DNA of 64,000 nt from Terramyces sp. JEL0728. Its lineage: Eukaryota > Chytridiomycota > Chytridiomycetes > Rhizophydiales > Terramycetaceae. The translations under genes and the position numbers were made by a program. Of this stretch, positions 1 to 64,000 are shown in pieces. Every line of letters starts with the position of its first letter. The first letter of the stretch is position 1. The notes beneath the pieces were generated by a model. It was given only the letters and a program-made list of their open reading frames with translations. It was not told the DNA's origin and made no database searches. The stretch spans positions 1 to 64,000 of the forward strand of contig JADIIU010000060.1 of the NCBI GenBank assembly GCA_027603945.1. The letters are read 5' to 3'.

Positions 1-48
1 TGCAATTCCACTGGATTTTGCAAATCTTCTCATGGACGATTTCTCGGT

Positions 49-837
49 TCACAAATTGGGAGTTGTACAAAATGCTGTCAAGAAGGAAGGAAGCTTTATA
101 TTCTGGCTCCTACCTCTCAAATTCAAGTTTTGGATGTAGGCGTTAATAAGCCCTTTAAAGATCGCACTGTGATTCATTCCCAAATCAGAGTTTCTGGCAT
201 CTTGGTCATTATGTCTAGTAGCTAAAAAGATTGTACTGGCTTGGTTGATAATATTACGACATTCTTGGTCCAAAACAACTTTTCCAGCATTCATCTGATC
301 GTGAACCACCTGTTCCTTTCGTTCAATTCTCTTCAATTGCCTAACAGTAATGTACTTTGGGCAATTGCCCATGTTTTCATTGGTTAGTAGCTGCATTCCA
401 ATCGAGCAATCTCGTACATTGAATTCATTAATCACTCCAGCAACTTTGTTTCTTCTTCTGTTTGTAAAATCAACGCCAACACCAGCAAATCTTTTAGTAT
501 CGGAATTGAAAGTTAAGCATTGCAAGAACGGATCACTTTTAGCTAAATCAACACCAACATTCAGTTGAAAAGGATTTACAGCATCTATCATTGTATTTGG
601 ATTTCCAACAATCAGAGTACACCACGGTCCTTGGTCAGCACCATAATCATACTCGAACTCGTCTTTATCAGCTTGCTCACAACTGCTCTTGACTATGGCT
701 TTTCTTATATTTGGTAATTCTGGGAATAACTGTAGATATTTCCAAAGGCACGTGTCTTTTTTGTTGCACAATATCACCGATTCGCATTGGACAAATTTCG
801 CATTCGACAACCCAAAATACGGTAGTATAATTGCCAT
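49..837 (-). CDS. PNPOx-like FMN-binding split-barrel protein (partial, boundaries uncertain)
   Basis: The reading frame contains blocks typical of the pyridoxamine-5'-phosphate-oxidase-related FMN-binding family: ADQGPWCTLIVGNP, then GVGVDFTNRRRNKVAGVI, then MGNCPKYITVR, then STIFLATRHNDQDARNSDLG followed by MNH, where the family usually continues HRGG. Members bind FMN and are poorly characterised oxidoreductases. The first 60 or so residues do not match the family, and a second frame reads through the same stretch, so an unrecognised short intron near the 5' end is likely. The frame stops at 49, but removing a possible 20-nt intron (gtaggagccagaatataaag on the minus strand) keeps it open to the window edge. 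The true C-terminus is probably outside the window. Family assignment is fair; the gene model is weak. Confidence 0.55.
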   Translation of the reverse strand: MAIILPYFGLSNAKFVQCESVILCNKKDTCLWKYLQLFPELPNIRKAIVKSSCEQADKDEFEYDYGADQGPWCTLIVGNPNTMIDAVNPFQLNVGVDLAKSDPFLQCLTFNSDTKRFAGVGVDFTNRRRNKVAGVINEFNVRDCSIGMQLLTNENMGNCPKYITVRQLKRIERKEQVVHDQMNAGKVVLDQECRNIINQASTIFLATRHNDQDARNSDLGMNHSAIFKGLINAYIQNLNLRGRSQNIKLPSFLTAFCTTPNL

Positions 838-966
838 TTGTCATTGACGAAAAAGCAGAAAATTTTCCCGAATTTATCTCAAAGAGCAAAGGGAATAACA
901 CCGAATTCCTTGATTGTAATTCGTAACGTTTTTCCAATTATAGAAATCCAACGCCGTAAATCCAGA

Positions 967-974
967 TATAAATA
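967..974 (+). promoter_or_regulatory. TATA-like box of the small secreted protein gene
   Basis: TATAAATA lies 32 bases before the ATG at 1007. No other promoter element is visible in the short gap after the divergent PNPOx-like gene. Confidence 0.4.
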
Positions 975-1006
975 CCACTGCAAAATGTCTTTTCATATCA
1001 TAGAAA

Positions 1007-1297
1007 ATGTTGTCTTTACTATTTGTTGCCTCAGCTCTCGCTTGCCAAACATGGGATGACTGTCCAGATAACCAAGTGTGCGTCCAACCAAGATTTAACT
1101 ATGGTCGTTGGGATTTAGCATTCTGTAGTGCTCCTACCCAATGGAAAACAGCTACTGGTAAAAACTTCCAAGGAAGTGCTCCTTGTTTCTTTATCAATAA
1201 CGACGAAAAAAGAGGTGTTATTTGTGGTGGTATTCTTCCAGATAAGCAATGCGGTGGATTCATTAACGGCATGGCCGATTATATTTTTTGCGAATAA
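1007..1297 (+). CDS. Small secreted cysteine-rich protein, 96 aa
   Basis: Unrecognised protein. The first 12 residues (MLSLLFVASALA) form a short signal peptide with an A-x-A-like end just before the first cysteine. The mature part of about 84 residues has eight cysteines (CQTWDDC, VCV, FCS, PCF, ICG, QCG and a final FCE), which fits four disulfides in an extracellular protein. It has no KR processing site and no transmembrane helix. A TATA-like box sits 32 bases upstream, and the gene is a single exon. It is oriented away from the PNPOx-like gene. The pattern resembles fungal secreted cysteine-rich proteins in general; no specific family or activity can be assigned. Confidence 0.65.
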   Translation: MLSLLFVASALACQTWDDCPDNQVCVQPRFNYGRWDLAFCSAPTQWKTATGKNFQGSAPCFFINNDEKRGVICGGILPDKQCGGFINGMADYIFCE

Positions 1298-1563
1298 AAG
1301 TAGTTTAGAATTGTAAATGATCAAAAACAAAGCAAAGGCATTTACCAGAGTTGCATTCCCCTTGATCCTATGTCCATCGGGTTATCATTTGCCTTACTCT
1401 ATTGAGCCAATATTGCACTTCTGTAAGCAATAGCAATCATCTTTATCAGCTAATTTACATCACGCTGCAATTGCAGTTAGTAAAGCTTGCGAGGAGTTTC
1501 AAAAAGTACCAAACAAATCATTTAATATAATTGAGTGTATACCACTGATTCAAAGGCAAAGAA

Positions 1564-2378
1564 TCAATCCTCCAGCTCAATTACCCCTCCTCCAATCTCA
1601 ACTACTCTTCCTTCAACATACACATTCGCTTTCTCGACAATAATATTCACTATGCACTTGCGTTCAAGTAGATGCCCTTGCTCCAACTGAAAAGTGCCAT
1701 ACATTCCTTTTTTCTGTAGCAATCTTCCTAGACATGCACACGCACTGCCAGTTCCTATATCAAATGTAAAATACCTGGGTCTTCAATAATTTGGTTTCCT
1801 CCATCGAAAAAGAATCGTGAAGTGACCTTGAATCCATCCAGTACATACAACAGAATCATATTGACTCTTAATCTTTTCATTTCAGTAATATTTGACACTG
1901 CTTTGAATAAAGAGTCAGTGTTGTCGACTTGGGACATTAATTCTCTGATTCCAGAATGAACCCAGGTGGATTCAATAATATCCACTCCAACACAAGTATT
2001 GACATTGCGAGTCTCTTGTTCAAATGTAGCTGGGTTAGCATGGAACTTGAAATAATCATTTCTGTGTGAAATTGGAATTATCCCTGCTTTTGTTTCTATT
2101 TGATTGCACTTTCCAAACATTTTGTTGATAACGAATGAGCTGCCCAAGGTTGGATGGCCAGCAAAAGGCAATTCAGTTGATGGTATGAATATTCGTATTT
2201 TTTTCGTTTCTGTCAGAGTGTCTTGGATGAATACAGTTTCCGAGAGATTGAATTGCAATGCTAATTTCAACATCCACTCTTCTGGTGTAGGAGAGGTAAA
2301 GACGCAGAGCGGATTTCCTTGCAGAATGTCTTTTTCTTCAGGACAAAACACATTTACCAATTTGTATTCCAGTTTCAT
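1564..2378 (-). CDS. PhzF-family isomerase-like protein, first copy (intact)
   Basis: Two exons (2378-1775 and 1754-1564) separated by a 20-nt intron at 1755-1774, giving 264 aa. The N-terminus has the PhzF pattern: VNVFCPEEKDILQGNPLCVF, LSETVFI with the catalytic glutamate, and ELPFAGHPTLGSSFV. Splicing restores the second-domain motif EDPGTGSACACLG, which is broken in the unspliced frame. PhzF-like proteins (S. cerevisiae Yhi9 type) are cofactor-independent isomerases; the substrate here is unknown. The last 20 residues end in IGGGVIELED and lie left of the duplication start at 1625, so only this copy has its native 3' end. Confidence 0.85.
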
Positions 2379-2553
2379 TCCGAGATTGCAAATTTAACTA
2401 CCAAGAATATTCTCACGGGACATCACAGTTGACAGCTCGATTACAAATACTACCATGTAGGAATGAGGAAAGTATTTCACGTGTTGGCCATTGACGAAAT
2501 TATTATCCCTGCTTAGTTTCATGCGAATGTGTTGGAGCTGTTAACACCTTTTA

Positions 2554-2910
2554 TTAAAAGAACTTTGCAATTATTGCGATTGCACATTGCACAATCGAAG
2601 CTACTATCGCCAACCAGCTTGAAACAGTAGCAACATCTTTTTGAGAGTGAAGAGTAATTGCTGGGGCTTGGATTGAAACAATAGCAACAATAACTATACC
2701 TATGAGCTTTAAAGCTTTTTCTCCTGGGCTTTCAACCAGCACAATTCCTGCTTTTGGGTCTGGATTGCTAGCATCTTCACCCTCGAATGGAAGGTCTGCA
2801 TTTTCACCTTCGAATGGAGGGATGGCTTCATTTTCAACCTTGATTGGATCAATTTGGACTTCCTCTAGTTCGTATTCGGTTTCCTCATTTTCTTCTTCTG
2901 GCTTTAGCAT
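2554..2910 (-). CDS. Acidic protein with two C-terminal membrane helices, 118 aa
   Basis: Unrecognised. Residues 1-60 are strongly acidic (EEENEETEYELEEVQ) and contain two short repeats, PPFEGENAD and LPFEGEDAS. The C-terminal half has two hydrophobic stretches, ALKLIGIVIVAIVSIQAPAI and WLAIVASIVQCAIAIIAKFF, so a hairpin membrane anchor with a cytosolic acidic tail is likely. It is a single exon, divergently oriented to PGM. The second copy at 18030-18386 keeps the frame despite several replacements, which supports it as a real gene. Confidence 0.6.
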   Translation of the reverse strand: MLKPEEENEETEYELEEVQIDPIKVENEAIPPFEGENADLPFEGEDASNPDPKAGIVLVESPGEKALKLIGIVIVAIVSIQAPAITLHSQKDVATVSSWLAIVASIVQCAIAIIAKFF

Positions 2911-3395
2911 TGTTTCAGACTATATTTTTTGATTGATAGCAATATTCCTGATTCATTTATACTCACAGTGTTAATATCTGTGCCTTATGTGACTCCGGAG
3001 GAAAAGTCCGACATGCAAATGTCTTTTTCAATTGATGTAATAAGGATACTTTGTTACAGCAGTATTCATGTGGAATATTGAGTGGTAGATATATTAACGG
3101 TAATCTTTTTTATGGTTTTGAAAAATACTGTCGTGATTACTCACATTCTACTGGTAATCTGAGCCTCTATGCCTACTCGTGCGTATAATACCAATCCTGG
3201 TATATCAAGAGAAATTGAGTTTATTCAAACTTTTGAAACCTGCTCAACAAATATCGTCCCAGATAAATTGGTTAACGAGCAGCAAAGTCAATGCAAGTCC
3301 ACGTACACATATATACCAATAGTCTGTCTAATAATTCAAAAGCCAAGGTTGAAATAAATGTTCCCACAAAAGTTTCACAAAATTGAAATCACAAA
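2911..3395. other. Intergenic region between divergent genes
   Basis: These 485 bases separate the acidic membrane protein (minus) from PGM (plus) and must hold both promoters. An open frame from a TTG at 3169 is not matched in the second copy, where indels shift the frames, so I do not call a gene. No clear TATA box or repeat is seen. Confidence 0.5.
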
Positions 3396-5173
3396 ATGAC
3401 AGACATTCACTCTCTGGTACAAGAATATCTATCGCTCGATCAAAACCCAACTACAAACAAGGAAATTAAAGACCTTTATGACAAAAAGGATCTTGCCACC
3501 CTCAATTCACTATTGACTGCCAGATTAGAGTTTGGAACTGCAGGATTGAGAGCGGAAATGGGTGCAGGATATTCTAGAATGAACGAGCTGACTGTCATTC
3601 AAGCTACGCAAGGATTATACAGCCATTTTAATTCTACTGTCCCAAATTTCGCTACTAAAGGAGTAGTCGTGGGGCATGATCACAGGTTCAACTCCGATTC
3701 ATTTGCGAAATTAACCGCGGCAGTGTTTCTATCGAAAGGAGTCAAGGTTTATTATTTAAAAGGATTGGTTCATACTCCGCTTGTCCCTTTTACAGTCACT
3801 GATACTGGTGCAGCTTGTGGTATTATGATCACTGCCAGTCACAATCCTAAACAAGATAACGGATACAAAGTCTATGCCGGTAATGGATGTCAAATTATTT
3901 CACCAACTGACAAGCAGATTGCACAACAGATTTTGGAAAACTTGAAGCCGTGGACTTGGGATTATGATTTGGTAAACAAAAGTGACTTTGTTGTTGAAAA
4001 AACAAAAGAGTTTAAAGAAAAGTATTTCAAGAGGCTGGCAGGAATCAGTCACTTTCCAACAAAGACAAAGAACGTAAAGTTTTTGTATACCGCCATGCAC
4101 GGTGTCGGATTGGAATTCGCCCAAAAATCATTTACAGCTTTTAATTTATCTGAATTTGAAGTGTGCCAAGAACAAGGTAGTTGTTTCTAACTCAGTCTTG
4201 CCTGACCCTACTTTCCCAACCGTCAAATTCCCTAATCCCGAAGAAAAGGGGGCTTTGGATTTGGCAGTAAAGGCTGCAGATAACGTGGATGCCAAGATCA
4301 TCCTCGCCAATGATCCTGATGCAGATAGACTTGCCCTCGCTGAGAAAGTCGGTGACAAATGGCACGTATTTACTGGCAACCAAATTGGTATTATCCTCGC
4401 TAGTTTTATCCTTGAATCCTACAAGGAAAAAGGACAAACTGCAAATTTGGGTGTATTGACCACTGCTGTTTCTAGTCACATGCTGGAAGAATTTGCAAAT
4501 GTCAATGGGCTAAGGTTTGAAGAAACTTTGACTGGATTTAAATGGCTAGGAAACAGAGCAATTGATATTGAAAAGGAGGGAACCAAAGCGATATTTGCAT
4601 ACGAAGAAGCTATTGGTAAGCTGCTTTAATGTAGGTTTCATGTGCCATGATGTTGTCAAGGATAAGGACGGTGTTTCTGCTTTAGGAGTCTTTGCAGAAT
4701 GGGCAAACCACTTGTACGGTAACGGCCAAACTGTTTACGGCCACTTGCAAAGTCTTTACAAATTGTATGGATACTGGGTATCTCAAAACTCTTACTTTAT
4801 CTGTCACGACAAGCAAACTATCGCTAAAATATTCGACAAGATTCGTTACGCTCTCAATACTACTACTTTGGATTATCCAAGAGAAATAGGAGGCTTTAAA
4901 GTGATTTACGTCAGAGATTTGACTGTCGGATATGACAGTTTAGCTCCCGACAACAAACCTACTTTGCCAGTATCCAGCTCTTCGCAGATGATTACCTTCA
5001 AACTTGAAAATAATTGTTTGATTACGCTTCGCACCAGCGGTACTGAACCTAAAATCAAGTACTACACAGAGTATAAAGGTAAAGATGCTGAATCTGGCAA
5101 AACTGAACTTGCTGCCATCGTTCAAAGCATGATTGACAACCTCCTTGAACCTCAATTAAACAATCTTCAATAG
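3396..5173 (+). CDS. PGM2-type phosphoglucomutase/phosphopentomutase, first copy
   Basis: Three exons (3396-4178, 4198-4615, 4635-5173) separated by two 19-nt introns, gtagttgtttctaactcag and gtaagctgctttaatgtag; 579 aa, the usual size. Splicing restores QEQVLPDPTFPTVKFPNPEE and YEEAIGFMCHD across the joins. The four alpha-phosphohexomutase signatures are present: phosphoserine loop TASHNPKQDNGYKVY, metal loop NDPDADRLALAEK, sugar loop GFKWLGNRAI/YEEAIG, and phosphate-binding RTSGTEPKIKYYTE. The sequence is closer to PGM2/PGM2L1 and yeast Pgm3 than to PGM1, so it probably interconverts ribose or hexose 1- and 6(5)-phosphates in the cytosol. Confidence 0.95.
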
Positions 5174-5222
5174 GCATCCAATAAATCATTGCTCGACTCT
5201 AGTGAATTTACATGCGAAAAAG

Positions 5223-6940: not shown

Positions 6941-7139
6941 TAAAATTTAACGCCGTGGATTCGATGATTTAATATACAAACAAACCACTGACAGCTGTTT
7001 GGGATATTTTTTGCTTTTATCAAGTATCAAACCTGCCTGATGGATTCTGGAACTAGCCAACACTTGATTATCGCGCTGTGGTCCTTACGATAGCATTCAG
7101 CGTCTATTTTATTGCCACCAACAATTTCCCAAATCTGAA

Positions 7140-8045
7140 ATGCCAATCATAGAGGTTAATGGAAATCAATTCAATTACGAATTAAAAACAGTTTCGCCAG
7201 CTTCGCCATTGCTCGTGTTACATCACGGAGGTGGCCATTCGCTCCATTCATTTTCACTGCTTGTAAAGAACTTGAATTACAACACACTGACTTTTGATTG
7301 CAGACAACATGGATTAACAGACACTACGAATGACTCTGATTTATCTCTCGAAACGTTAACCAATGATCTTGTGTCCCTCGTCCAGAAATTTGAATACAAG
7401 GAGCTCGTGCTGGTTGGACACAGTACACCTATCTAATGTAGGTATGGGAGCACCAGTAGTAATATCGGCAATGCCGAGACTGAAAAAGGTGGTTGGGATA
7501 GTTGTGCTGGATGTAGTGGAAGGCACGGCGATAGAAAGCTTGGGGATGATGACAAGTATCTTGATGCGCAGACCAAAAAGTTTCAAGAGCAAAGAAGATG
7601 CTATCGAATGGAGTTTGAAAAGCGGCGGAAAGAATTTGGAAAGCCTAAAGGTATCTGTTCCTGGACAATTAAGAAATGTCAATGGCAAGTACTACTGGAG
7701 GACAGACTTGGAATCGTCTAAAATATACTGGCAAGGTAAGAAACTATAGACTATTTGCGATATGTCTATAATACTTGGGTACTAATACCAGGGTGGTTTG
7801 AAAATATGAGCGAAAAGTTCCTCTCCTGTAAATGTGCAAAGTTACTGGTTTTGGCAGGAGCAGATAGACTAGACAAACCGTTAATGATTGGCCAGATGCA
7901 GGGAAAGTTCCAGCTGATAATCATCCCTGAAAGTGGCCATTTAATCCAGGAGGATGTGCCAGAGAAATTGGCGGTTATAATTGACGAATTTTACAAGAGA
8001 AACCAACCACTAGATATTACCAAGATAAGAAAGCCATTGCAATAA
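7140..8045 (+). CDS. PPE1: Protein phosphatase methylesterase (PPME1/Ppe1-like), first copy
   Basis: Three exons (7140-7422, 7442-7735, 7792-8045) with introns of 19 nt (gtacacctatctaatgtag) and 56 nt; 276 aa. This alpha/beta hydrolase removes the C-terminal methyl ester from PP2A catalytic subunits. Removing the first intron restores the nucleophile elbow VGHSMGAPV; the second join gives YWQGWFENMSEKFLSC. Other family blocks are VVLDVVEGTAIESL, RPKSFKSKEDAIEWSLKSG, LAGADRLDKPLMIGQMQGKF and the catalytic histidine in ESGHLIQED. At 276 residues it is shorter than the human and yeast proteins (about 390-400), lacking most of the N-terminal extension. The 56-nt intron is exceptional here. Confidence 0.95.
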
Positions 8046-8185
8046 AGCGAATCGTCCTATTTCTATAGTTGCCTCTCCCTTAAAATGCACTGCCGCAAAT
8101 CCCTTGACTCTCCATGCAGAACTGGTAATAAATGAATTACTGGCAAACGTGCTCAGAAATGGGTTCAGAATTTTTTTGTTTCAGA

Positions 8186-9793: not shown

Positions 9794-9836
9794 TAACAAT
9801 TTATTTGGAAATAAATGTACTTTAGATTGAGCGGTT

Positions 9837-10946: not shown

Positions 10947-11226
10947 TGAACAGCGGAATATATTTTGAAGCGTTTTAATATCAAGTCACTGCACATTTTT
11001 AATATATGGTAGAACACAAGAAATGCATAAAAAAACAAGCACAGAATTAAAAAAAGACAGACAGTCGAAAGAAATTTCATTTGGGTCGTTAATTATTATA
11101 CGGTATCCTTATTTTAAGCCTTCCAAGTTTTCGGGGTTGAAGTCGGAGTATGCCAGCAATTAATTCATCCCCTCCAACCGAATCTCTTTGCTTTGGAACA
11201 AGAACTATAATCATAAACACAGTATA

Positions 11227-12359
11227 TTAAGAATGGAGGGCTTTGGCAAACCCAATTTGGCTATGCTGCTTGTCATACACGGTATAGTAAGCCCTAGTCA
11301 AAACATCACCAAAGATGTTGAAACCGCCGGCTCCTCTATCGATGCCAGAAGCACAAATGCCACCGCCAAGATCAATAACATAGATACTACTTGGAATAGT
11401 TAGAGTAAAGGTGGGGAATTTAAAATCGATATTTGCACCAGTGCTAGCCTTTGCACAATCGATTGGATAGTACCCGCCACTAGCATCAAATGGCTGGGCA
11501 CCAATAGCCTGGTTAATCGCATCAGCAACCGGAGCATACAAGATAATCAGCGTAGTGCCAGTATCAGAGATTGCATTTTTTACGACACTCCCAATCGATC
11601 CGGTCTTGGATCCAACTTTAAAAGAGACCTTACTGACATCAAACTGCCAGTAAGTCTTTGAATTGACAGGAACCCATTGCAATGTTCCTTTGAAGCGAGT
11701 ATTGTCAATTCCGCCAATCGTAACTTCGCCATAATCGCCATCAGCATAATTGGACAAGTAAAAAGAGAATTTCTGGTATCCAGATGTAAACCCTAATCCG
11801 TCAAAGTAGTTTGCGTTCTTGCCCGTGACAGCCGCAATGGTAGACAGGGAATTGTATGCTAATCCCACCAATCCCGCGTTGCCAGAAAATCCATTTTCGT
11901 ATGTGGACACACCAATAGGAATATTTGCAATTGCCCCGCCGATATTGACTGTAGTGGTATAGATGTTTGCTGATAACTGCCCACTTCCATACGTTACTTG
12001 GAATGACTTGCCATATGGAACGATAGTGTTATCCGCCAGACTAAGTTTCGAACCAGTGCATGAGTCATCAGTACTAGTACATGCAGGACCGCGTACCCAT
12101 GTATCAGCAGAGCCAGTCTATAATTAACAAAAGGTACATCGAGATCCAGCAAGAATAACTGCCCGTTGCCAATAGAAACGTACACAGAATAGAAATAATT
12201 CCCAATATTCTTCAGATTAACATTCTTTGTAGTTGCATATCTGGCCAAAGTGCTTTTGGCAGAAGCAACAGGATCATTATTGAGCTTAGAAATCTTTAAC
12301 GTGAACGTATGGTTCTTCTTGGCGCATACGAGCACTAGCAACAATAAATACAAGATCAT
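11227..12359 (-). CDS. Secreted aspartyl protease (pepsin-like), active-site intact, first copy
   Basis: Two exons (12359-12138, 12117-11227) with a 20-nt intron gtaccttttgttaattatag; 370 aa. Without splicing the frame runs past the active site in the wrong register. Splicing gives LDLDTGSADTWVRGPAC, the first catalytic DTG. The second is NAISDTGTTLIILYAPVADA. The signal peptide is MILYLLLLVLVCA, followed by a short propeptide-like segment. Ending FGDVLTRAYYTVYDKQHSQI is typical of A1 proteases. It is most likely secreted or vacuolar and digests proteins at acid pH. It shares a short (94-bp) divergent promoter region with MESH1 and is the active counterpart of the degenerate paralogue downstream. 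Confidence 0.93.
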
Positions 12360-12453: not shown

Positions 12454-12994
12454 ATGGAATTGGAGAAATTGCTGGACTGTATTGTATTTGCAGCAGAGAA
12501 ACATAAAAATCAGCGACGCAAGGATAGCGGTGCGACTCCGTACATCAATCATCCCATTGGAGTGTAACAGATGTTAATATAGTGCGCACATTCTGATCAA
12601 GGAAAACATTAGCGATATTGATATCCTTTGTGGTGCGATTCTGCACGACACAGTCGAAGACACCGAAACTACATTTGATGAATTATCAAATACGTTTGGG
12701 CCAACAGTTACCGCTTACGTCCGCGAAGTTACTGATGACAAGTCCAAGCCAAAGCAAGTCAGGAAGCAATTGCAAATAGAAACAGCTGCGCACAAGTCGC
12801 ATGGAGCGAAATTGATCAAGATGGCAGACAAGCTTTATAATTTGAAGGATTTGGAACGGGCAACTCCACAAGGGTGGGATCAAGAGCGAGTCGATCAGTA
12901 CTTTATCTGGGCAAAGAAGGTTACAGATAACCTGCAGGTTCATGAGGGATTGCAAGGCCAATTAAGGGAAATCTATTCTCGCAACATCAAATAA
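12454..12994 (+). CDS. MESH1/HDDC3-type HD-domain (p)ppGpp/NADPH phosphohydrolase, first copy
   Basis: Two exons (12454-12563, 12583-12994) with a 19-nt intron gtaacagatgttaatatag; 173 aa, the usual MESH1 length. Family blocks in order: AAEKHKNQRRKDSGATPYIN, HPIGVAHIL across the splice join, GAILHDTVEDTETTFDEL (HD metal site), REVTDDKSKPKQVRK, AHKSHGAKLIKMADKLYNL and LERATPQGWDQERVDQYF. MESH1 is the eukaryotic SpoT-like hydrolase, reported to act on ppGpp and on NADPH in animals; the substrate here is not known. The stop codon lies inside the first unit of a 39-bp tandem repeat. Confidence 0.95.
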
Positions 12995-15218: not shown

Positions 15219-16816
15219 ATGGATACATCTCCAGTGACCGATAAAGAGATATTCGGATGGCAGTCGTATGGGTTTGCGTCCGAGGCTTTTGCTGCGTTAG
15301 GCAAGTATCGCTAACATAGGTCTTGCAGTGTTTTTCCCTATAATACTGCAACAAATGGCAGCACACTCGGCATACGATGTGAATCACCAGCCATGTAACA
15401 TTACTGGATCATACAAATGCACGATAGACATATTCTTTATCAGCGTCGACACTTCCTCAGCGGTTTTTTTTGCTTCTTCGATTTCAGTACTGTTTCAGTT
15501 TATTCTGTTTATATGTCTAGGATCTGTTGCTGATTATGGAGAGTATAGAAAGAAATTTATGATGGGGTTTGGATACCTTTCGGCTGTAGTCGGACTGGGA
15601 ATGTTGCTAATTGTTGATTCAAAACTATTTAAAACCGCAATTCTAATTTATATACTTGGAAGTGTATTTCATGGAGCCTCCTATGTTTTCTTTTACAGCT
15701 ATGTCCCGATACTAACGAGATTCCATCCAAAAGTAATTGAAAAAAAGAATACACAAGAGTATTATAAAGTGATGGATAAAATCGGTAACGATATCAGCAG
15801 CGCTGGATTCATGTACGCGTATTTCGCCTCGGTATTTGAATTGGTGGTAGCTTCAATTATCGTCTTTGTACTTGGAAACGGCGAGGACTACGGATTGCCA
15901 GATGTATATCCGCTACAGATAGGGATCGCATTTGCTTGCATATGGCAAGTAGTTGTAATGGTTAAATACACTGAGCCTAATCTAAAGTCCAGAGCTGGCC
16001 CGCCTTTACCTCCAGGAGAGAATTTCGTTGTGTACTCAATCAAGAACTGTAATTAATATTAACCTAGTACAAATCACATTATCAAAAGCAAGGCAACTAA
16101 AGGAATTATTCATGTTTCTCTTAGGCTGGTTTGTATTCAGTGATGGGATAAGTACAGTTTCAACTGTCGCGATTTTGTACTGCCAATCAGAATTAGGTGT
16201 ATCGCAGATTGGCTTGCTGGCTGCCGCTATACTAACTCCACTAGCTGCTGGGATTGGAAACTTTACCTGGATTAGGATTCAAGCAAAGTACAAGCTTACT
16301 ACACAACAGACACTAGTTATACAGTGTATAATGCACTGCTTGCTGCCTGTTTGGGGGTTAATTGGATTCTTTACACCTAAAGGTATTTGATACTAACAAG
16401 GCTCTTTTGGTTTACAAGCCAAATGGGAGATTTATGTCCTGGCCTGCTATTACGGGTTCTTACTTGGTGCTTCCCAATCTTCTTGCAGAGTAATGTTTTC
16501 AGACCTGCTACCATATGGCCAGGAGGCAGAGTTCTTTTCCTTGTATGAAATCACTGATCGGGGAAGTAGTTGGATCGGGCCATTGGTAGTTGGTGCAATT
16601 GGCGACGCCGGTGATAAACGCTATTCGTTTGTCTTTCTGCTGTTCATGCTGATGATACCTGTCTATATCTTTAGTAAGGTAGATACTGTAAAAGGCAAGC
16701 GAGACGCCATTCAGTTTGCGTCCAAAGAGGAAGAGATGATTGCATTACGGACAACAATTCAGTCCGAGCCGCAAGAAGAAGATTTGCAACGGTTGATTCA
16801 GGAACCCAATCCCTAG
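15219..16816 (+). CDS. ATG22: Atg22-like vacuolar amino-acid effluxer, first copy
   Basis: Four exons (15219-15300, 15320-16048, 16068-16382, 16401-16816), 513 aa. Intron 1 is a 19-nt GC-AG intron (gcaagtatcgctaacatag), intron 2 is gtaattaatattaacctag, and intron 3 is only 18 nt (gtatttgatactaacaag). The N-terminus EIFGWQSYGFASEAFAALG and later FMFLLGWFVFSDGISTVSTV, GASQSSCRVMFSDLLPYGQE and FFSLYEITDRGSSWIGPLVV are characteristic of Atg22, an MFS-type protein that exports amino acids from the vacuole after autophagy. About 11-12 transmembrane helices are visible. It is followed by the promoter and 5' end of the MTC1-like gene. Confidence 0.93.
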
Positions 16817-20655: not shown

Positions 20656-20704
20656 GCATCCAATAAATCATTGCTCGACTCTAGTGAATTTACATGCGAA
20701 AAAG

Positions 20705-40100: not shown

Positions 40101-42602
40101 AAACCCCCGGGATTCTGGAGAGTGATCATCTTTGGTAAAGTGAGGTAAAGTGCGATCTTTGAAGCCAAAAGGAATACGTTTACCCTCGACATTTTGTTGT
40201 CCTACACACGCTGTCATCTGGGAAATATTCAGGAAAGAGCCTTTGGACCCAGCGACTACCATCTGCTTGACATTGTTAAATTCTTTGAGCGATTTTTGGG
40301 CACTCTTACCAGCATTATCTCTCGCTCTGTTCAGTTCCATGTTAACCAAGGATTCGAACGATTGTCTAATTGTCATACCAGGCAAGCATTCCAATTCATT
40401 ATTTTGAGCCTTGAGAATAATTCTATTTACTTCTTTTTTAGCATGAGCAATAGTATCATTAATCGCTTTCATTGTGCTCTTATCAGCAATAGTATCTCCG
40501 ATACCAATCGAGAATCCGTTTTGCAATAGCCAGTAATTGACAACGGCTTGTGTTCCGTTAAAGAAATCCTTGGTAATTTCTGGTCCGTGTTCATTCATAG
40601 AAGTGTGGATAACACCACTGGCGCTGGAGCCAACAGTTTTTTTACACAAAATTCCAGCAAGCAGCTCGCCGTTTTCAATGATTACTCTGGTGTCGCCGGG
40701 ACTGATATCGGTTGTTTCATCATCCGGATGAGTGCTGTGGAAACCAATCATGTTGATTTGTGGGATGATGATAGACATTACTTGTTTGGCGGTCCATAAA
40801 GGAATAGGCTTCAAGATTGCAGGTTGTGGTATAATACCATCCCAGTTTGGCACCCACATTAGCAAGTTCATCAGCAAATCCCTATGCAAAAAGGTATCCC
40901 TTTTGGTGAATTTACGAATTCCACACAATGTGTCTTGTACAATACCCATAACAGGTGCGTTCTTTTGCGGCGAAACTATTTGCTTTGGCACCATGCACAA
41001 TTGCTGGATTTCTGCTCTGGTTTCGTGAGATTGAGGAACATGCAAGTTCATTTCGTCACCATCAAAGTCAGCATTATATGGTGAAGTTACAGACAAGTTG
41101 AGCCTGAATGTGCTGTAAGGCATAATTTTAACCCTGTGGCCCATCATACTCATCTTGTGAAGAGATGGCTGACGGTTAAAAATGATATAGTCATCATCCA
41201 GCAAGTGGCGTTCCACCTTGTATCCGTACTGCAAGTGAATATCTCCACCTCTTTTGCTATAACGAAGATCGATACGCTCACCAGTATCTCTGATCACATA
41301 CTTTGCTCCAGGGTGGAGATTAGGTCCATTTCGAACCATTTGAGAAAGGGTTTCAAGATTGTACGGAGTAACAGTTTCTGGAAAAGTCAAGTTTCTAGCA
41401 ATTGATCTTGGCACCCCAACTTGATCAATTGAAAGATTAGGGTCACCGGTAATGACAGTACGTGCACTAAAATCGACACGTTTGCCCATCAAGTTTCCAC
41501 GCAAACGACCCTCTTTACCCTTCAATCTAGCACGAATAGATTTGATCTAGTTTAGAATTAAAATACAGGTCTTCCGGACTTTTGCGACGCTTGTGGAATG
41601 CCAGCAGTTTCATTATTCATATAGGTACATACATGCCACTGCAGCAAATTTTCCAATTCTGCAATGATGTGACTTGGAGCACCATCAACATCATGTTTTT
41701 TCAAATTTGTATTGGCTTTGATAATATCACTCAATTTGTGCGTCAAATCGTCTTCACCACGACCCATACCATCCATACTAATTGATGGGCGAACAGGCAT
41801 CGGAGGAACAGGAAGCACAGTTAAAATCATCCATTCAGGTCTGGCCCAGATTGGTGAGAGACCCATTTTCAAACACTCCTCGTCAGTAATCTTGATCAAG
41901 ACTTCAAGAGCTTTAGAAGCAGATACTTCCATCGTTCTAGCTTCAATTTTTTCTCCATCCTTTTGTTAAAAAAAAATACTTCATCGCTGGATGCTTTGAA
42001 ACTAGCAGTTAAAGTTAGCCCTTTTAATCGAAAAGTAGGTTGTCTTTGGCCACATCCACCATGATTATGTTTGACTTTCCCTTGATCTCCTTCCAAATTC
42101 TCTTCAACAGCACAAATAGTTTTTCCTTTTGACAAACTCCATATTTCTTGAAATTTTCTCGCATTGTTTTTAACGGTTTGAGCTCTCTTGAACCTGAAAT
42201 CAGATTCATCGCTCTTGATCTTACTACAGAAAAAGCAAACAGTTTCTAATGTTTTTTTGATTTTTTTCAAATAACCTGAATAAGAAAGAGTTACCAGCAT
42301 GATATACAGGTTTAGCAAATTCAATATGGCCAAAATGCCCAGGACAGTCGGTCATACTTTCTCCACAAGTTTGGCACTTGAAATTGCGATCTATTGTGCC
42401 CATTCGCGGATCTAGCAATCCTCCATGTTTTGGTTTGTCATTCTCCATCGTTTCTGGAAACTCAATTAACGCAACAGACATTGCTTTCTTATGTTAGATT
42501 ATAAATTACAGTTTCTTCTGGAGCCAAAATCCCAAATTGGACGTGATTGACCACTTTTAATGGAGCAGAAGAATGAGGAAATCCATGAACATTTGCAGAC
42601 AT
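37122..42602 (-). CDS. RPB1: RNA polymerase II largest subunit
   Basis: Five exons (42602-42510, 42487-42295, 42275-41980, 41959-41567, 41546-37122) with introns of 22, 19, 20 and 20 nt; 1799 aa. It is the catalytic subunit of nuclear RNA polymerase II. Exon 1 gives [20 protein letters not shown], the clamp-core start. The zinc motif [32 protein letters not shown], the active-site [14 protein letters not shown] and the trigger-loop region [20 protein letters not shown] are all present. The C-terminal domain has roughly 22 exact YSPTSPS heptads plus several variant ones and an acidic end. All four introns sit in the first 1.1 kb, and each join restores family sequence (PVYHAGYLKK, SSDEDGEK, SGRPIKSIRAR). 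Confidence 0.98.
37300..37905 (-). repeat. CTD heptad minisatellite (21-bp units)
   Basis: About 28 head-to-tail 21-bp units encode the RPB1 CTD heptads. Third-position changes are frequent and occur in blocks, as expected of a repeat that expands and contracts by slippage or unequal exchange. Confidence 0.95.
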
Positions 42603-43133: not shown

Positions 43134-43635
43134 TTATTTAGCAATACCAATGACTCCACATGCAACTCTGCCACCAGCATTGCCAGTAGTCTTGGAGAAT
43201 TCATGAGTAGTCTAAATTAGCAACAAGTTACCAAACCCAAATCATCTTGATCAGCATGCAAGACAACAGTTCTTCCAACAACGCTGTGAGGACCGTACAG
43301 TTTGATTTGCGAATCAGTAATGGTAGTTTCAACTTTACCATTTGCATCTGCCTTTACATTTCCTAAATCACCGACATGGCGAACGGAAGCGTCTGGAGCA
43401 CCGTGAGTATGGCCGTTTGGGTTAAAGTGGCCACCAGCGCTAACACATCCGTTAGTGTTATCACCGAATTCATGGACATGGAATCCATGTAATCCTGAAA
43501 TTAGTAATTTTTACCTGGGGTAAGACCAGAAAGGGAAATTTGGATGCTAGTTGGTTGAGATTCAGCTTCTTGAGTGAATGTTACAGTTCCGGTTGATGGA
43601 GAGTCGCCCTTCAATACGCAAACAGCCTTGACCAT
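43134..43635 (-). CDS. SOD1: Cu/Zn superoxide dismutase
   Basis: Three exons (43635-43515, 43494-43232, 43211-43134) with 20-nt introns gtaaaaattactaatttcag and gtaacttgttgctaatttag; 153 aa, the standard length. It disproportionates superoxide in the cytosol. Copper and zinc ligands lie in [24 protein letters not shown] and [28 protein letters not shown] and [13 protein letters not shown] are also present. Splicing of the second intron joins DDLGL to [14 protein letters not shown] possible weakness is that the family's DDLGKGG loop reads DDLGLTT, slightly shortened. Confidence 0.98.
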
Positions 43636-45013: not shown

Positions 45014-46191
45014 AAACGAGCAGGCGGCAATTCGGGTTTGTTTTCAAGAATATCATCGATTTTCTTCATAATTTCATCAGACAATTTTCCAACTACTGTC
45101 AACGAAGCTAGATTTTCTTTGACTTGAGAAGGCCGTGAAGCTCCAGTAATGACTGACGAGACATTCTTGTTCTTCAAGCACCATGCTAAAGCTAATTGAG
45201 CCAACGTGCAATCAAGTTCTTTAGCAATTGCTAATAGTGATCGGACTTTTCCTTGCTTGAGTTTCCCTTCATCGCTTTCAACCAAGTTCTTTCGCATTCT
45301 AGCCATCTATGTAAAATCAATATTACCATTGCATCGTTTTTGATTCCTAATCGCGAATCTGGAGGAATCCCGTCCAGGTATTTCCCAGTCAAAACTCCAG
45401 ATGCTAGTGGAGACCAAATAGTTGTTCCAAGACCAAACTTTTTGTACAATGGCGCATACTCTAATTCAAATCTCTCGCGGTGGAACATATTGTATTGTGG
45501 TTGTTCCATCAAAGGACCAACTAGCCCCAATCTCTCTGCAACTCTGTGAGCATCCATTAATTGCTCCGCACTTTTTAGAGATGATGTACCTCCATTCGCT
45601 TGTCCCCCAGTAGAATGCAAGTCCTTGATCTATGCACCAATTGAATGCGCGCACCGTTTCTTGATTAATCAACAAATACCCTCCATTGGAGTACTGCGTC
45701 AATTAAATATTACCTAATTGTTACAAACAAAAAACCAATCATCTAGAAATTAACGGATTATACCTGGTCGATGAGCAAATACCAAGTCGACATAGTCCAG
45801 CTGCAACCTCTTCAAACTAGCTCGCAATCCTTCTGCAATATGCTTGCGAGACAATCCACGATCGTTAGGGCCGCTCCCTGCCCAGTAAAGTTTAGTTGAA
45901 ATAACTAATGAGCTCCTCGGCCATTTATACTTTTTGATTGCCTCTCCGATAACCCTTTCGGATTCACCAGCAGCGTATACTTCGGCTGTATCAAAAAAGT
46001 TAATTCCAGCATCGTATGCTACCTTCAAGCATTCAAATGTCGTATCTGGTTAATTGCGATTTACCATCTGTTACTTGCTTACCGAATGTTACCCACCCTC
46101 CAAGAGATAATGCGGACACTTTGAGGCCATCCGTTAATGAATTCGTACCTGAATTGCCCAAGAAGCGATATTCCATTTCAGCTGTACTCAT
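45010..46191 (-). CDS. Kv-beta-like aldo-keto reductase (AKR6 type)
   Basis: Seven exons: 46191-46065, 46045-45764, a 7-nt exon 45742-45736, a 14-nt exon 45693-45680, 45659-45590, 45570-45327 and 45306-45010. Introns are 19, 21, 42, 20, 19 and 20 nt; total 1041 nt, 346 aa. NADPH-dependent reductase related to voltage-gated potassium channel beta subunits. Motifs: [20 protein letters not shown] across the first join, [15 protein letters not shown] (catalytic Asp/Tyr), [14 protein letters not shown] (Lys), [20 protein letters not shown] across three joins, [12 protein letters not shown] and [15 protein letters not shown]. The 7-nt exon is required to keep both frame and consensus spacing. Residues TNSLTDG near the N-terminus look like a retained 21-nt former intron. 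Confidence 0.93.
45736..45742 (-). other. 7-nt micro-exon of the aldo-keto reductase
   Basis: ATGATTG (coding strand) lies between a 21-nt intron (45743-45763) and a 42-nt intron (45694-45735). It supplies the last two bases of Asp, a whole Asp codon and two bases of Cys, giving RPDDCTPMEE, where animal Kv-beta proteins have RPDPNTPMEE. Skipping it breaks the frame. Confidence 0.8.
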
Positions 46192-55394: not shown

Positions 55395-55507
55395 TTTAGT
55401 CGTAATCATATTTAGAAACTATAAATTAATCAACAAGAGAGAAGTTACTCAATAAAAAAGGTGCCATTATAGAATTTGATAACAATGAGTTGACAAAACT
55501 TTTTCTA

Positions 55508-56372: not shown

Positions 56373-56729
56373 TATTAGTTGCTCTTACATTTAGAAATTA
56401 CAAGCATATGGGGAATGCCAAGCAAGTTCAGTAAATCTAATAGTATACTTGCAAACAGAGCTATGGAATTTCACTTGACTTAATAAACATGCAAATGAAA
56501 CCACTTTAATTTGGATCACGTTTCAAGTCATTTGATTACGAAATATTCACACCACATAGGTAACAACAGCCGTGTGCCATAACCTACGTGATTTCGTTTA
56601 GCGGATCGACAAACACAGTCCTGCGGTTTACCTCTACTGCTTCCATCACAAACTCAATTGTTTCACTTGCCCGTTTGTGGCTGGTGTATGAGTTTTTTTA
56701 TCGGACCCGTAATAACTTGCAAAAGTAGG
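56373..56729. other. Intergenic region before the mitochondrial carrier
   Basis: 357 bases. A short minus-strand frame near 56590-56680 (containing KRASETIEFVMEAVEVNRRT) is open but lacks an upstream start and cannot be joined to anything. No repeat or RNA gene seen. Confidence 0.35.
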
Positions 56730-59159: not shown

Positions 59160-61559
59160 TTATTTTGCCAATTCAATAGCTTCATCAATATCCATAAACT
59201 CAAACTCTCCACCTTTCTTTACCTGACAGTACAAAACGTCGTCATCAATATACGCCAAAAGTTTGCCCATTCTGTACAAATCTCTACCGTTCTTTTGTTT
59301 GTTTGTAGGCACAAACTCGATATTCGCGTCTGCACACATACTTTCAATCAAATCTTGGAACGAGTATTCAAGTTCGGTACTAGCAGTAGGTTCCTGCTTC
59401 TTACTGACATTTGTCGGCACGAATTCAGTGTTGGTCGTTAAACCTTGGTTGATCATATCTAAACCGGTACGGAACCCATCTTTGAAACACTGTAATTGAT
59501 CAAGATTGTTGTCTATAAAAAATGTTTTCCATGTGGTATACCATTGACTGATTTCTGAAAAATTCGATTCAGGCAGTTTAATCCATTCCCAGAGAACTTT
59601 TTGCCACTTGTTGAAGAACTCAGTTTGTAATAAATTAGAAAATAGATGTGGTGGGATTACTTGTGACCAGTTTAGTACCGTCATCAGCGGCTCGATCTGC
59701 TGGTTAGACGGATCGACTTCAAATTCATTTCGCAAGTACAAAATAAGTTGCGGTAAGATTGAATTTACTAGCAGCTGCTGCAATTCATCGTTCGTAAACA
59801 CCTTTAATAAGATAAAGCTTACCTCTGACCACGCAGTGACAATTCGTAAAGCAGTATCGTCTGTAGGATGCCATTTCTTGAAAAATACTTGAAACTTTCT
59901 TCTAATAACAGGAAACAAGGGGTATATGCTTTCTTGAAGAATAGGCAACCACGGAAAGATCCATCCATGAATCTGATACCCATCCTGCCTAATTCTATGT
60001 AATTCCAATGTCCTCTCCAGTTTAGGCAATATCAACTGATCAATAATATTTGAATACAGCCATATTGGTATTAAAGTGGTATATTTCGACCAATTCTCAA
60101 CCAACTCTACAATCGGTTCGGGTTTATATGGATCCCAGTCATTATTGATCGCTTGTCTGACTCTGGGTAACCAGTGCGAATAAACCATGTATTCAAACTG
60201 CGACATTGTATCCTTGTCATTTGACGGCACAGCTAATCGACTCCATTGGTACAAATCATCCAACAAGAAAATTGGATTTTCTAATGGATCCCATCTCTTC
60301 ATATTGTTTTTAAATCCAGGAGTTAGAATGGATACTACCAGTGAATCCAGCTGATATTCTTGATATTCCTGTAAATATTCATTTACAATTGTATTGAAAT
60401 GGCTACCAAACAATTCGTTAATAATTTTTGGGTTGACATCAGGTGCTGATAATTTCCAACTGTTTGCAGCATTGATTTGCAGGATCTCCTTTACGATTTC
60501 CAACACCTTTTCTAATTTTGACAGTTTTATTTGGTGTTTAGAAATAATGTCTTTTGTAGCTTTGATATCCTGAATATGCCGCTCCTGCATTGCAATTTCA
60601 ATTCTATTCTGTCTTGCAATATGTAACAATTCGTTTTGGCACAAATCAGTGATTAGTTTCATATTATGTCGCAATTCCGGTAATCTGACAGTGCTTTCTT
60701 CCTTTTCCATTACCAATTCAGACATATCTGTGACTATTTTTTCCTCTTTTCCAGTCATATCTCTGATCTTGGTTGTAGTGGGTTGCGCAGTAACAGGGAC
60801 AGTCCCAGATTCAACTTGTTCTTGGATAAGTTGTTGAGCAGTTTTATATTTCGGTTTCCTTCTTTTAACTGATTTCTTCCAGGATGGCAGGTTGACTTGC
60901 TTTACTTGCTTTGCTTCTTGTTTCTTTGTTGATTTTGTCTTTTCTTCAACCATACCTAAACCAGCACCTTGGGGTCGTAAATTGACTTCAATTGGAGTTG
61001 CAATACCGGCTCCGTCTTTACCAAGACCCTGTCCAGGTACATAACCTTGCTTCAACAGCATTTTCAGCCCGAATCCTTTCCCGTGTTTATTAAAAGCCCC
61101 AAAAGCTTGATCTAGGACTACAGGTTTGATAGGTTTTGCTTGAGCGTATTTGGTTTCATTTAGTGATTTTGGTGTTGATTTTTTCTCTGCTTCTGTTTTA
61201 CCAACACTTGGTTTGTTTACATTAACATTTTCCATCCCTGCGAATTTAGGTTTGCCAAAGGAAGGTCTCTCGTCCTCATCCATGAAATTGGTTTGTGGTT
61301 TACCAAAAGAAGGACGTTCTTCCTCCTCCTCTTCATCTCTATTCCTCTGTACAGGCACATACCCCTCAGAATCAGAGTCCGAAACTGAACTTTCCATATC
61401 TGCATCAACTTGCTGTTTCTTTTGAAATTTGATTCCCCCTTTTTGAAGACTAATTCGAGATTTAGCTTCGTCTTCCATGAAATCCCCGTATATTTCTTTT
61501 TCTTTTTTGGAATAGAATGCTTGTTCCTCGTCACTACTCGAATTCTCTTGCTCAAACAT
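59160..61559 (-). CDS. TFIP11/Ntr1-type G-patch splicing factor
   Basis: Single exon, 799 aa. Order: acidic Ser-rich N-terminus with FGKPQTNF/FGKPKFAG repeats, a G-patch at about 160-205 (HGKGFGLKMLLKQGYVPGQG, then LGKDGAGIATPIEVNLRPQG), a basic segment (SWKKSVKRRKPKYKTAQQLI), then the long helical GCFC domain with YSHWLPRVRQAINNDWDPYK. TFIP11 in animals and Ntr1/Spp382 in yeast recruit the helicase Prp43/DHX15 through the G-patch to dismantle intron-lariat spliceosomes. It lacks introns, unlike most genes here. It is directly relevant to how such small introns are handled. Confidence 0.93.
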   Translation of the reverse strand: MFEQENSSSDEEQAFYSKKEKEIYGDFMEDEAKSRISLQKGGIKFQKKQQVDADMESSVSDSDSEGYVPVQRNRDEEEEEERPSFGKPQTNFMDEDERPSFGKPKFAGMENVNVNKPSVGKTEAEKKSTPKSLNETKYAQAKPIKPVVLDQAFGAFNKHGKGFGLKMLLKQGYVPGQGLGKDGAGIATPIEVNLRPQGAGLGMVEEKTKSTKKQEAKQVKQVNLPSWKKSVKRRKPKYKTAQQLIQEQVESGTVPVTAQPTTTKIRDMTGKEEKIVTDMSELVMEKEESTVRLPELRHNMKLITDLCQNELLHIARQNRIEIAMQERHIQDIKATKDIISKHQIKLSKLEKVLEIVKEILQINAANSWKLSAPDVNPKIINELFGSHFNTIVNEYLQEYQEYQLDSLVVSILTPGFKNNMKRWDPLENPIFLLDDLYQWSRLAVPSNDKDTMSQFEYMVYSHWLPRVRQAINNDWDPYKPEPIVELVENWSKYTTLIPIWLYSNIIDQLILPKLERTLELHRIRQDGYQIHGWIFPWLPILQESIYPLFPVIRRKFQVFFKKWHPTDDTALRIVTAWSEVSFILLKVFTNDELQQLLVNSILPQLILYLRNEFEVDPSNQQIEPLMTVLNWSQVIPPHLFSNLLQTEFFNKWQKVLWEWIKLPESNFSEISQWYTTWKTFFIDNNLDQLQCFKDGFRTGLDMINQGLTTNTEFVPTNVSKKQEPTASTELEYSFQDLIESMCADANIEFVPTNKQKNGRDLYRMGKLLAYIDDDVLYCQVKKGGEFEFMDIDEAIELAK

Positions 61560-63205: not shown

Positions 63206-63257
63206 TGCAGGACAAACAAAATGCAAAGATGCGAATGTAATTTATTCAACATGCAAT

Positions 63258-63365
63258 CTAACTAGTTCCCTTTGGTTTACCTGGGTTGCATCCAAAGAAA
63301 CACATGATGTTTCTCTTTTCAGCAGGAAGAGCCAATACTACAGCCAACAAGACAAAAACCCTCAT
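63258..63365 (-). CDS. Short secreted-peptide precursor 1 (35 aa, KR site, CxxxC)
   Basis: Too short for ordinary gene calling. Signal peptide MRVFVLLAVVLALPA is followed by EKR, a Kex2-type dibasic site ending at residue 18. The predicted mature peptide is NIMCFFGCNPGKPKGTS. A TATAAAA lies about 25 bases upstream of the ATG, and an AATAAA follows the stop. An alternative ending exists: gtaaaccaaagggaactag is 19 nt with GT and AG, and splicing it would change the tail to VRLHVE with a stop at 63242; the CFFGC core is unaffected. The matching architecture of 63753-63869 is the main support. Confidence 0.55.
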   Translation of the reverse strand: MRVFVLLAVVLALPAEKRNIMCFFGCNPGKPKGTS

Positions 63366-63390
63366 TTTGGATTACATATGTTTTTAACGT

Positions 63391-63397
63391 TTTTATA
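63391..63397 (-). promoter_or_regulatory. TATA box of peptide precursor 1
   Basis: TATAAAA on the minus strand within GGGTATAAAAACG, about 25 bases before the start codon at 63365. Confidence 0.5.
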
Positions 63398-63484
63398 CCC
63401 GAAAAGCGTTTCAATCTAAGGTGGAGTTTCTGTTTTTATTGTTCCAAAAATACATTAAAACTATCATTCTTTTGGAATTTGGAT

Positions 63485-63707
63485 TTATTTGGTAGAGAAA
63501 GATCTTGCTTCCGGTTTACTAGCTGTTGCTTTATAGTGTACTTTTCGAGTAAAAGAAAGCTCTTTTAAATCTATAGCCTAAAAATACCCTATTGTCCCCA
63601 ATTATCCACGGTTTTATGATTGCATGTAGTCAGAAAGGATTACCTTTATAAGTAAAATCTACAGATTCTTGGTTATCAGCCCATTGGATCACACCTAAAT
63701 CACCCAT
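63485..63707 (-). CDS. Possible two-exon 49-aa protein
   Basis: Exons 63707-63644 and 63570-63485 joined across a 73-nt gap (63571-63643) bounded by GTAATC and CTATAG. The product begins MGDLGVIQWADNQESVDFTY and ends KPEARSFSTK, with no signal peptide. The intron is much longer than the norm here and may hide a further micro-exon, so the model is tentative. No family recognised. Confidence 0.35.
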
Positions 63708-63752
63708 AATATATCCAAAAGTATTAAATAGAACAAAGAGAATAAACTTTAT

Positions 63753-63869
63753 TCAACTGTTTGTTGGCGCAGGTCGACCTGGTCTGTACGGATCACATCT
63801 CCATTTACATACATCACGCTTGCCAAGTGGTGCAGCAAGTACAACTGAAATCAATGCCCAAATATTCAT
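63753..63869 (-). CDS. Short secreted-peptide precursor 2 (38 aa, KR site, CxxxC)
   Basis: Signal peptide MNIWALISVVLAAP, then LGKR with the dibasic site ending at residue 18, exactly as in precursor 1. The predicted mature peptide is DVCKWRCDPYRPGRPAPTNS. Both share two cysteines three residues apart, then N/D-P, a basic residue plus proline, and an S end. Stop TGA overlaps an AATAAA (GTTGAATAAAG). The precursor layout (signal, KR, one short peptide) resembles fungal peptide-pheromone or secreted-signal precursors with a single copy; the bioactivity is unknown. Confidence 0.55.
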   Translation of the reverse strand: MNIWALISVVLAAPLGKRDVCKWRCDPYRPGRPAPTNS

Positions 63870-64000
63870 GACTTATTGCAGGAAAATTCGCAATCTCCAT
63901 GGATGAAAATCCACTGTTTATTTACAAAACAAACAAAATAACATCTTTTTTATTTTAAGAGACGTTGTTTTCGCCTGTAATTGGTTTTACGATTGAACAT

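Follow-up and report, generated by a model that had tools for sequence, protein, structure and literature searches.

Predicted introns of 18–23 nt in the chytrid Terramyces sp. JEL0728 have lengths that are the sum of two nearly fixed distances

We analysed the first 64,000 bases of contig C60 (hereafter the window) of the Terramyces sp. JEL0728 assembly, which comprises 15.0 Mb in 231 contigs, and found that its genes are interrupted by GT/GC-AG segments of mostly 19–21 nt whose removal restores recognisable proteins. New here is that the length of these predicted introns is the sum of two nearly fixed distances, one from the 5' splice site to the branch A and one from the branch A to the 3' end. 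We consider it likely (roughly 80%) that the segments are spliceosomal introns of the U2 type, reduced to a minimum length that the geometry of the spliceosome imposes. Terramyces, which we take to be a free-living soil fungus, is classified in Rhizophydiales (Chytridiomycota). The RPB1 reading frame in the window (37122–41525, minus strand) is 100% identical to the deposited Terramyces sp. JEL0728 protein over 1467 residues, while Kappamyces, Gorgonomyces and Batrachochytrium, relatives in the same order, show 71–78% identity over 81–88% of the frame. The acyl-CoA synthetase (ACSL) gene on contig C1 is likewise 100% identical to the deposited Terramyces sp. JEL0728 protein.

Introns were predicted with a self-trained gene finder that reads both strands with explicit introns, starting from a flat length prior of 9–300 nt, demanding only GT or GC together with AG, and passing through six training rounds. 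It was trained on 264 kb, namely the window minus the second copy of a tandem duplication plus C1:1–200000. The calls come from DNA and restored proteins rather than RNA, and it is from these that we infer removal from transcripts. The trained finder placed 404 of 516 introns at 17–24 nt (395 of 481 when only GT donors were allowed), with 4, 109, 167, 90, 27, 5 and 2 introns at 18, 19, 20, 21, 22, 23 and 24 nt, respectively, whereas four sets of decoy dinucleotides, trained identically, yielded 20–33 at 17–24 nt among 406–539 introns. The 404 calls represent 402 distinct introns at approximately 2 per kb of coding sequence, with a mean of 20.12 nt and a standard deviation of 0.99 nt, statistics that exclude the 112 of 516 predictions outside 17–24 nt. 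All but two of the 402, which span 18–24 nt, fall within 18–23 nt, and the set shows the property of a tiny-intron genome, with nearly all lengths within a few nt of each other and near 15–21 nt.

The peak recurred when donor and acceptor models were combined with a flat prior of 9–120 nt (79, 140, 51, 18 and 5 introns at 19 to 23 nt, and at most 4 at any other length). With neither a signal or branch model nor a length prior, 106 of 180 GT-AG introns lay at 18–24 nt versus 10–20 of 144–163 in five decoys, although the coding model of this run had seen spliced genes in training and the run is therefore not wholly independent; at a higher intron cost the figures were 84 of 138 versus 6–18 in decoys. 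A first pass trained on long open frames alone gave 41 of 154 at 18–23 nt versus 4–7 in six decoys. Furthermore, a plain motif count on both window strands, duplicate included, found 27 cases of GTA, GTG or GTT exactly 19 nt from the end of YTRAY plus two nt plus AG, where the average for any one length was 6.1. An initial annotation of this DNA had proposed that nearly all introns measure 18–23 nt, and the peak, its lack in decoys and the 400 of 402 introns in range bear this out beyond the window as well; its 55 introns came without a list, and agreement was judged on the distribution, not intron by intron. In the window without the second duplicate copy, the trained finder called 67 introns at 17–24 nt (1 of 18 nt, 27 of 19, 26 of 20, 8 of 21 and 5 of 22), a total in which two introns at the duplicate edges are counted double and at least one call is wrong, the predicted intron at 45764–45782 being a miscall contradicted by the aldo-keto reductase (AKR) alignment. 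The same region holds 19 predicted 'introns' longer than 24 nt, one of which was verified (7736–7791), while several others span neighbouring genes. Predicted introns longer than 60 nt were rejected as a class; their spread under the flat prior is as even as that of decoys, and several fuse unrelated genes. Stop codons occur in frame in 66 of 89 21-nt introns, the mean for the two remaining frames being 46, and we claim no selection for them because the finder sees stop-free 21-nt introns poorly.

The anatomy of the 404 introns is as regular as their length. Donors were GT in 388 and GC in 16 (the AG end was required by the model), with A at +3 in 343, A at +4 in 219, G at +5 in 79 and G before the donor in 196. 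A strict search for GTNNG plus the branch pentamer gave no length peak, since Terramyces donors consist of GTA and an AT-rich continuation in which G at +5 is infrequent. A perfect YTRAY was present in 292, compared with 77.7 after shuffling of the interiors, and in 79 of the 106 introns called without a branch model. The distance from the 5' G to the branch A was 14 nt in 157 introns and 15 nt in 160 (317 together; shuffled interiors gave approximately 41 each and 82 together), and that from the branch A to the 3' end was 5 nt in 165 and 6 nt in 147. Both spacings persisted in the introns called without a branch model (88 and 83 of 106). The four combinations of 14 or 15 nt with 5 or 6 nt occurred 77, 73, 75 and 58 times (Fisher p 0.41), consistent with independence, and independent spacings make lengths gather at 19 (14+5), 20 (14+6 or 15+5) and 21 nt (15+6). 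The stretch from donor to branch is T-rich, and the gap between branch and AG is just 3–4 nt. The introns thus have the GT/GC-AG ends of the U2 type as well as a branch motif close to their 3' end; with the U2 small nuclear RNA (snRNA) described below, these sequence tests support the spliceosomal nature claimed by the initial annotation, in a host that is a fungus.

If the segments are shrunken U2-type introns, U6 would pair with the 5' site and U2 with the branch site, leaving next to no linker. The two spacings would then reflect how closely the U6 helix on the 5' site and the U2 helix on the branch can be packed, with AG lying only a very short way beyond the branch. Little shorter than this floor could be spliced, and a deletion bias may have stripped nearly everything above it, leaving the narrow range. 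Deletion bias down to a floor has been argued for other tiny-intron genomes, in passages of PMC10245619.

Homologous proteins were aligned to the DNA with a spliced aligner that used a flat intron cost and permitted introns of 10–400 nt; the references were 33 RPB1, 30 AKR and 22 ACSL proteins from 120 listed homologues, and over all of them 3, 3 and 1 frameshifts were needed, respectively. Other introns were judged by their position within Pfam domains or structural homologues of the spliced product. The features supported in this way in the window are as follows, with RPB1 support counted over the 33 references, some of which have no N-terminus.
42488..42509, minus strand: RPB1 intron 1, 22 nt; 23 of 33 references, public protein P0001 concordant
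42276..42294, minus strand: RPB1 intron 2, 19 nt; 26 of 33 references (1 of 33 favours a 94-nt intron), P0001 concordant
41960..41979, minus strand: RPB1 intron 3, 20 nt; 26 of 33 references, P0001 concordant
41547..41566, minus strand: RPB1 intron 4, 20 nt; 29 of 33 references, P0001 concordant
15301..15319, plus strand: ATG22 intron 1, 19 nt, GC-AG; within the single continuous Pfam ATG22 match of the spliced product
16049..16067, plus strand: ATG22 intron 2, 19 nt; within the same continuous match
16383..16400, plus strand: ATG22 intron 3, 18 nt, GTATTTGATACTAACAAG, the shortest found in the window; within the same continuous match
4177..4195, plus strand: phosphoglucomutase intron, 19 nt; residue 260, within PGM_PMM_II (209–312)
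4616..4634, plus strand: phosphoglucomutase intron, 19 nt; residue 400, within PGM_PMM_III (321–443)
12118..12137, minus strand: aspartyl protease intron, 20 nt; residue 74, within Pfam Asp (57–367)
12564..12582, plus strand: HD-domain protein intron, 19 nt; residue 37, within HD_4 (11–138)
43495..43514, minus strand: Cu/Zn superoxide dismutase intron, 20 nt; residue 40, within Sod_Cu (15–149)
43212..43231, minus strand: Cu/Zn superoxide dismutase intron, 20 nt; residue 128, within Sod_Cu (15–149)
46046..46064, minus strand: AKR intron, 19 nt; 30 of 30 references at all intron costs tried
45743..45763, minus strand: AKR intron, 21 nt; 29 of 30 references at cost 8 and 12, 13 of 30 at 16, 0 at 22
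45736..45742, minus strand: AKR micro-exon of 7 nt, ATGATTG; implied by both flanking introns, with equal cost dependence
45694..45735, minus strand: AKR intron, 42 nt, divisible at AG/GT into 22 nt (45714–45735) and 20 nt (45694–45713); 29 of 30 references at cost 8 and 12, 13 of 30 at 16, 0 at 22
45660..45679, minus strand: AKR intron, 20 nt; 30 of 30 references at cost 8 and 12, 14 of 30 at 16, 1 of 30 at 22
45571..45589, minus strand: AKR intron, 19 nt; 29 of 30 references
45307..45326, minus strand: AKR intron, 20 nt; 24 of 30 references (3 of 30 favour a 26-nt variant)
7736..7791, plus strand: intron of a PME-1-like methylesterase, 56 nt, indivisible into units; within YWQ/GWF, where the spliced product aligns gap-free to the PME-1 chains 3c5w and 3c5v

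All four RPB1 introns were recovered by the Arabidopsis protein and by the Spizellomyces protein individually. After removal of the 18-nt and the two 19-nt segments, residues 7–478 of the ATG22 product match positions 2–481 of the 482 in the Pfam ATG22 profile without a break, in keeping with the initial annotation, which had named the 18-nt segment as the smallest intron. The central part of AKR depends on the intron cost, and at cost 22 a single 83-nt intron (45681–45763) was favoured by 29 of 30 references. Among seven introns in ACSL, five (20, 20, 23, 19 and 20 nt) appeared with 21–22 of 22 references and one (20 nt) with 15 of 22; the disputed seventh measured 20, 23, 32 and 35 nt with 7, 3, 8 and 1 of 22 references. 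The deposited Terramyces ACSL protein, aligned with the DNA, gave the same seven introns with no indel or frameshift and 20 nt for the disputed one; it additionally implies a 21-nt intron and gaps of 288 and 174 nt, apparently joining another gene. Separately, a 21-nt AKR segment (46128–46148, minus strand; GTACGAATTCATTAACGGATG) adds seven residues missing from the Boothiomyces protein. It starts with GT, and TTAAC at position 15 resembles a branch motif, but its last two letters are TG; it could be an intron of the GT-TG kind or one that was converted to coding sequence.

The splicing machinery encoded in the assembly looks conventional for the factors checked. A U2 snRNA scored 140.2 bits (C70:14443–14635) with the canonical branch-binding GUAGUA. 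U2AF2 (approximately 440 residues), Slu7 (477) and Prp18 (330) are full-length predicted proteins once 19–21-nt introns are removed, SF1 and U2AF1 are present as exon-by-exon matches, and the Cwc25 N-terminus reads MGGGDLNLKKSWHP, with the glycine plug present; among these factors, the loss of second-step factors of the Stentor type was not seen, as Slu7, Prp18 and the Cwc25 plug were all found. Since the splicing factors found are those of a conventional spliceosome, the standard machine appears able to operate at this limit. A whole-genome search gave no match to U1 snRNA, which for this search tool is no proof of absence. The same scope gave two Rfam-model matches for U6, both below the cut-off, and no credible U6; the one that was read turned out to be intron-containing coding sequence and was rejected. 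A search for one half of the U6 core pattern gave six matches at a 3-mismatch limit, none convincing, versus three in a reversed control, and the other half gave none. The U6 gene may be unassembled, or introns may interrupt it. As to the adaptations that the initial annotation had suggested looking for, U2AF2, U2AF1 and SF1 were found, a result on presence only, and U2 is canonical at its branch-binding site, while the U6 part yielded no gene. The window also encodes, at 59160–61559, a protein with G-patch and GCFC domains, presumably TFIP11/NTR1-like; TFIP11/NTR1 is a spliceosome disassembly factor.

Several observations weigh against the interpretation as shrunken U2-type introns. Excision was deduced from restored proteins and not from RNA reads. 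The 404 introns stem from a trained model and some are wrong, and the other 112 of 516 predictions mostly look like noise or gene joins. Within the 404, 112 have no perfect YTRAY. Unspliced, the U2AF2 match reaches 251.7 bits, below the family cut-off of 310.3, and Pfam detects two of the expected RNA-binding domains in the product. Neither U1 nor U6 was found, which makes their pairing with the introns an assumption. Finally, the 56-nt intron of the PME-1-like gene has strong signals, and longer introns are thus not forbidden.

The longer introns bear on another explanation, in which the spliceosome also has an upper limit and longer introns persist mainly as tandem 20-nt units cut in succession. 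Three longer introns look like paired units meeting at AG/GT, as in a twin or recursive pattern: the AKR intron (22+20 nt), one in an ARL2-like gene (20+20 nt; C1:92337–92376), where the alignment to ARL2 is gap-free with a one-residue length difference elsewhere, and C1:126215–126256 (21+21 nt), a candidate from its sequence pattern. In all six units position 15 is an A, a candidate for the branch nucleotide (the 22-nt unit was read by eye). By chance, approximately 0.12 intron-like units are expected directly after the 404 introns, and a perfect-motif scan found none directly after and one directly before, namely the ARL2-like pair. Each pair could, however, equally be removed as a single intron of 40–42 nt, and in a targeted run only 3 of 28 model introns of 36–48 nt divide, with two of those splits contradicted by the AKR and ATG22 proteins. 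The indivisible 56-nt intron also argues against serial units; a third PME-1 chain, 7soy, matched its product in two stretches. As this intron is real, the upper length limit is soft. A hairpin in the 56-nt intron was not counted as evidence because 9.4% of 500 shuffles fold as well or better. We regard succession of tandem units as rather unlikely. Equally doubtful is the broader proposal that two independent rulers of 14–15 and 5–6 nt act with a soft upper limit, and that many would-be longer introns are concatenated 20-nt units cut serially, with the conventional step-1 and step-2 factors checked retained.

Instead of shrinkage, a short mobile intron (introner) that spread recently could account for the uniform length. 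Pairs of introns with at most 4 mismatches were more numerous than after column shuffling (140 versus 68.6 at 19 nt, 89 versus 60.3 at 20 nt and 6 versus 3.9 at 21 nt), as were pairs with at most 2 mismatches (6 versus 2.9 at 19 nt and 6 versus 1.3 at 20 nt). This excess is mild, however, and no identical pair and no near-identical family was found among the 402 distinct introns. Further, the ACSL record of Boothiomyces macroporosus reads EYVAPEK followed by YTVINQNRIGVSTA, where the Terramyces protein continues across the intron from EYVAPEK to IEILYQQ; by back-translation by eye, these letters seem to fit a retained 19-nt intron at the Terramyces site, with the frame lost afterwards. At least that intron would then predate the split of the two genera, and we judge a recent spread to be improbable.

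More improbable still is removal by a non-spliceosomal route such as translational bypassing or DNA elimination. The uniform length does resemble that of other excised elements, and the case for splicing is built on DNA and restored proteins, but the GT/GC-AG ends, the branch motif at a fixed place, and the presence of U2 snRNA, SF1 and U2AF speak against it. Sequencing or assembly errors as the source of the frame breaks, which might account for two 1-nt length differences between locus copies on contigs C199 and C111 (one of them in a T run), have practically no standing, since errors do not insert 19–21 nt with GT, branch motif and AG time after time, decoys show no length peak, proteins of other phyla demand removal of the segments, and the deposited Terramyces RPB1 and ACSL proteins match the DNA only with them removed. 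The locus copies just mentioned (L032/L033; C199:4823 and C111:34941 regions) are near-identical, perhaps haplotypes. Two of their introns differ by 1 nt (21 versus 20), possibly by error, with at least one of the differences in a base run; the other aligned indels lie between genes.

Tiny introns of uniform length have been described in heterotrich ciliates, in a relic nucleus and in the parasitic mikrocytids, and the chytrid shows the same state. Stentor coeruleus is also free-living, with uniform tiny GT-AG introns of 15–16 nt. According to sections of PMC9505925, its branch A lies at position 10 of 15, leaving 5 nt from branch A to end as in Terramyces, and U2AF2, U2AF1 and SF1 are listed as present. 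Its branch A lies 10 nt from the 5' G, in contrast to 14–15 nt in Terramyces, and the same sections list Slu7 and Prp18 as N/A and Cwc25 as having no glycine plug, whereas Terramyces keeps all three. Chlorarachniophyte nucleomorphs are intron-rich with a near-equal range of 18–21 nt, as reported in part of PMC10245619, but are the relic nucleus of an endosymbiont, whereas the Terramyces introns belong to a fungal main nucleus. Mikrocytos mackini has very uniform introns of 16–17 nt (217 of 224 at 16 nt; same source, in part); it is a parasite with only those 224 introns and a reduced spliceosome, in contrast to the intron density of Terramyces. Splicing factors are reported missing in mikrocytids and Stentor in the portions of the literature covered. 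Paramecium and Nyctotherus likewise have only ultra-short introns (approximately 25 nt; PMC5014332, in part), a few nt longer than those of Terramyces. If RNA confirms the present calls, the retention of Slu7, Prp18, the Cwc25 plug, SF1 and both U2AF subunits would mean that their loss is unnecessary for 20-nt splicing, and the minimum distance from 5' site to branch would become testable in a fungus with near relatives.

In yeasts, too, the branch is anchored a few nt from AG, at 3 and 4–5 nt in two Candida species, but there the constraint concerns the 3' part, and intron lengths in Yarrowia run to hundreds of nt (PMC2483917, in the parts available). The reading of the initial annotation, which stressed how close the branch lies to AG, is supported with a refinement: the distance from branch to AG is not exceptional, being similarly short in these yeasts and in Stentor, and what is exceptional for a fungus, set beside the 10 nt of Stentor, is the 14–15 nt from 5' site to branch. 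Among the abstracts and passages listed by searches of an open-access library, none described introns of 20 nt in chytrids or any other fungi. Neolecta (Ascomycota), a lineage unrelated to Terramyces, reportedly has short introns in its beta-tubulin gene. The word intron does not occur in the main text of the Neolecta genome paper (PMC5309816).

Two Boothiomyces records (P0121 and P0243) carry garbled stretches at the sites of Terramyces tiny introns. The gene finder behind the Boothiomyces records seems to have missed some tiny introns, and in practice such genomes may mislead gene finders, as these two records suggest. In Kappamyces, RPB1 has an insert of approximately 20 residues at the site of Terramyces intron 2 (by eye), a possible sign that the Kappamyces intron is longer.

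The tandem duplication in the window has a period of approximately 15.47 kb (1–15300 and 15470–30600), with 96–100% identity in four listed 300-nt stretches. Fifteen of 16 predicted introns of the first copy have an equal-length partner in the second, and one carries two substitutions. Tandem clusters of proteins at 33000–37000 and 54455–56400 look multi-pass by eye, and two tested members had no Pfam match at E 0.01. Two adjoining genes for P-type cation ATPases lie at 46287–51306 and are 82% identical over a 300-nt stretch. On contig C1, the product g59 (178328–190600) resembles a retrotransposon protein fragment, by eye only.

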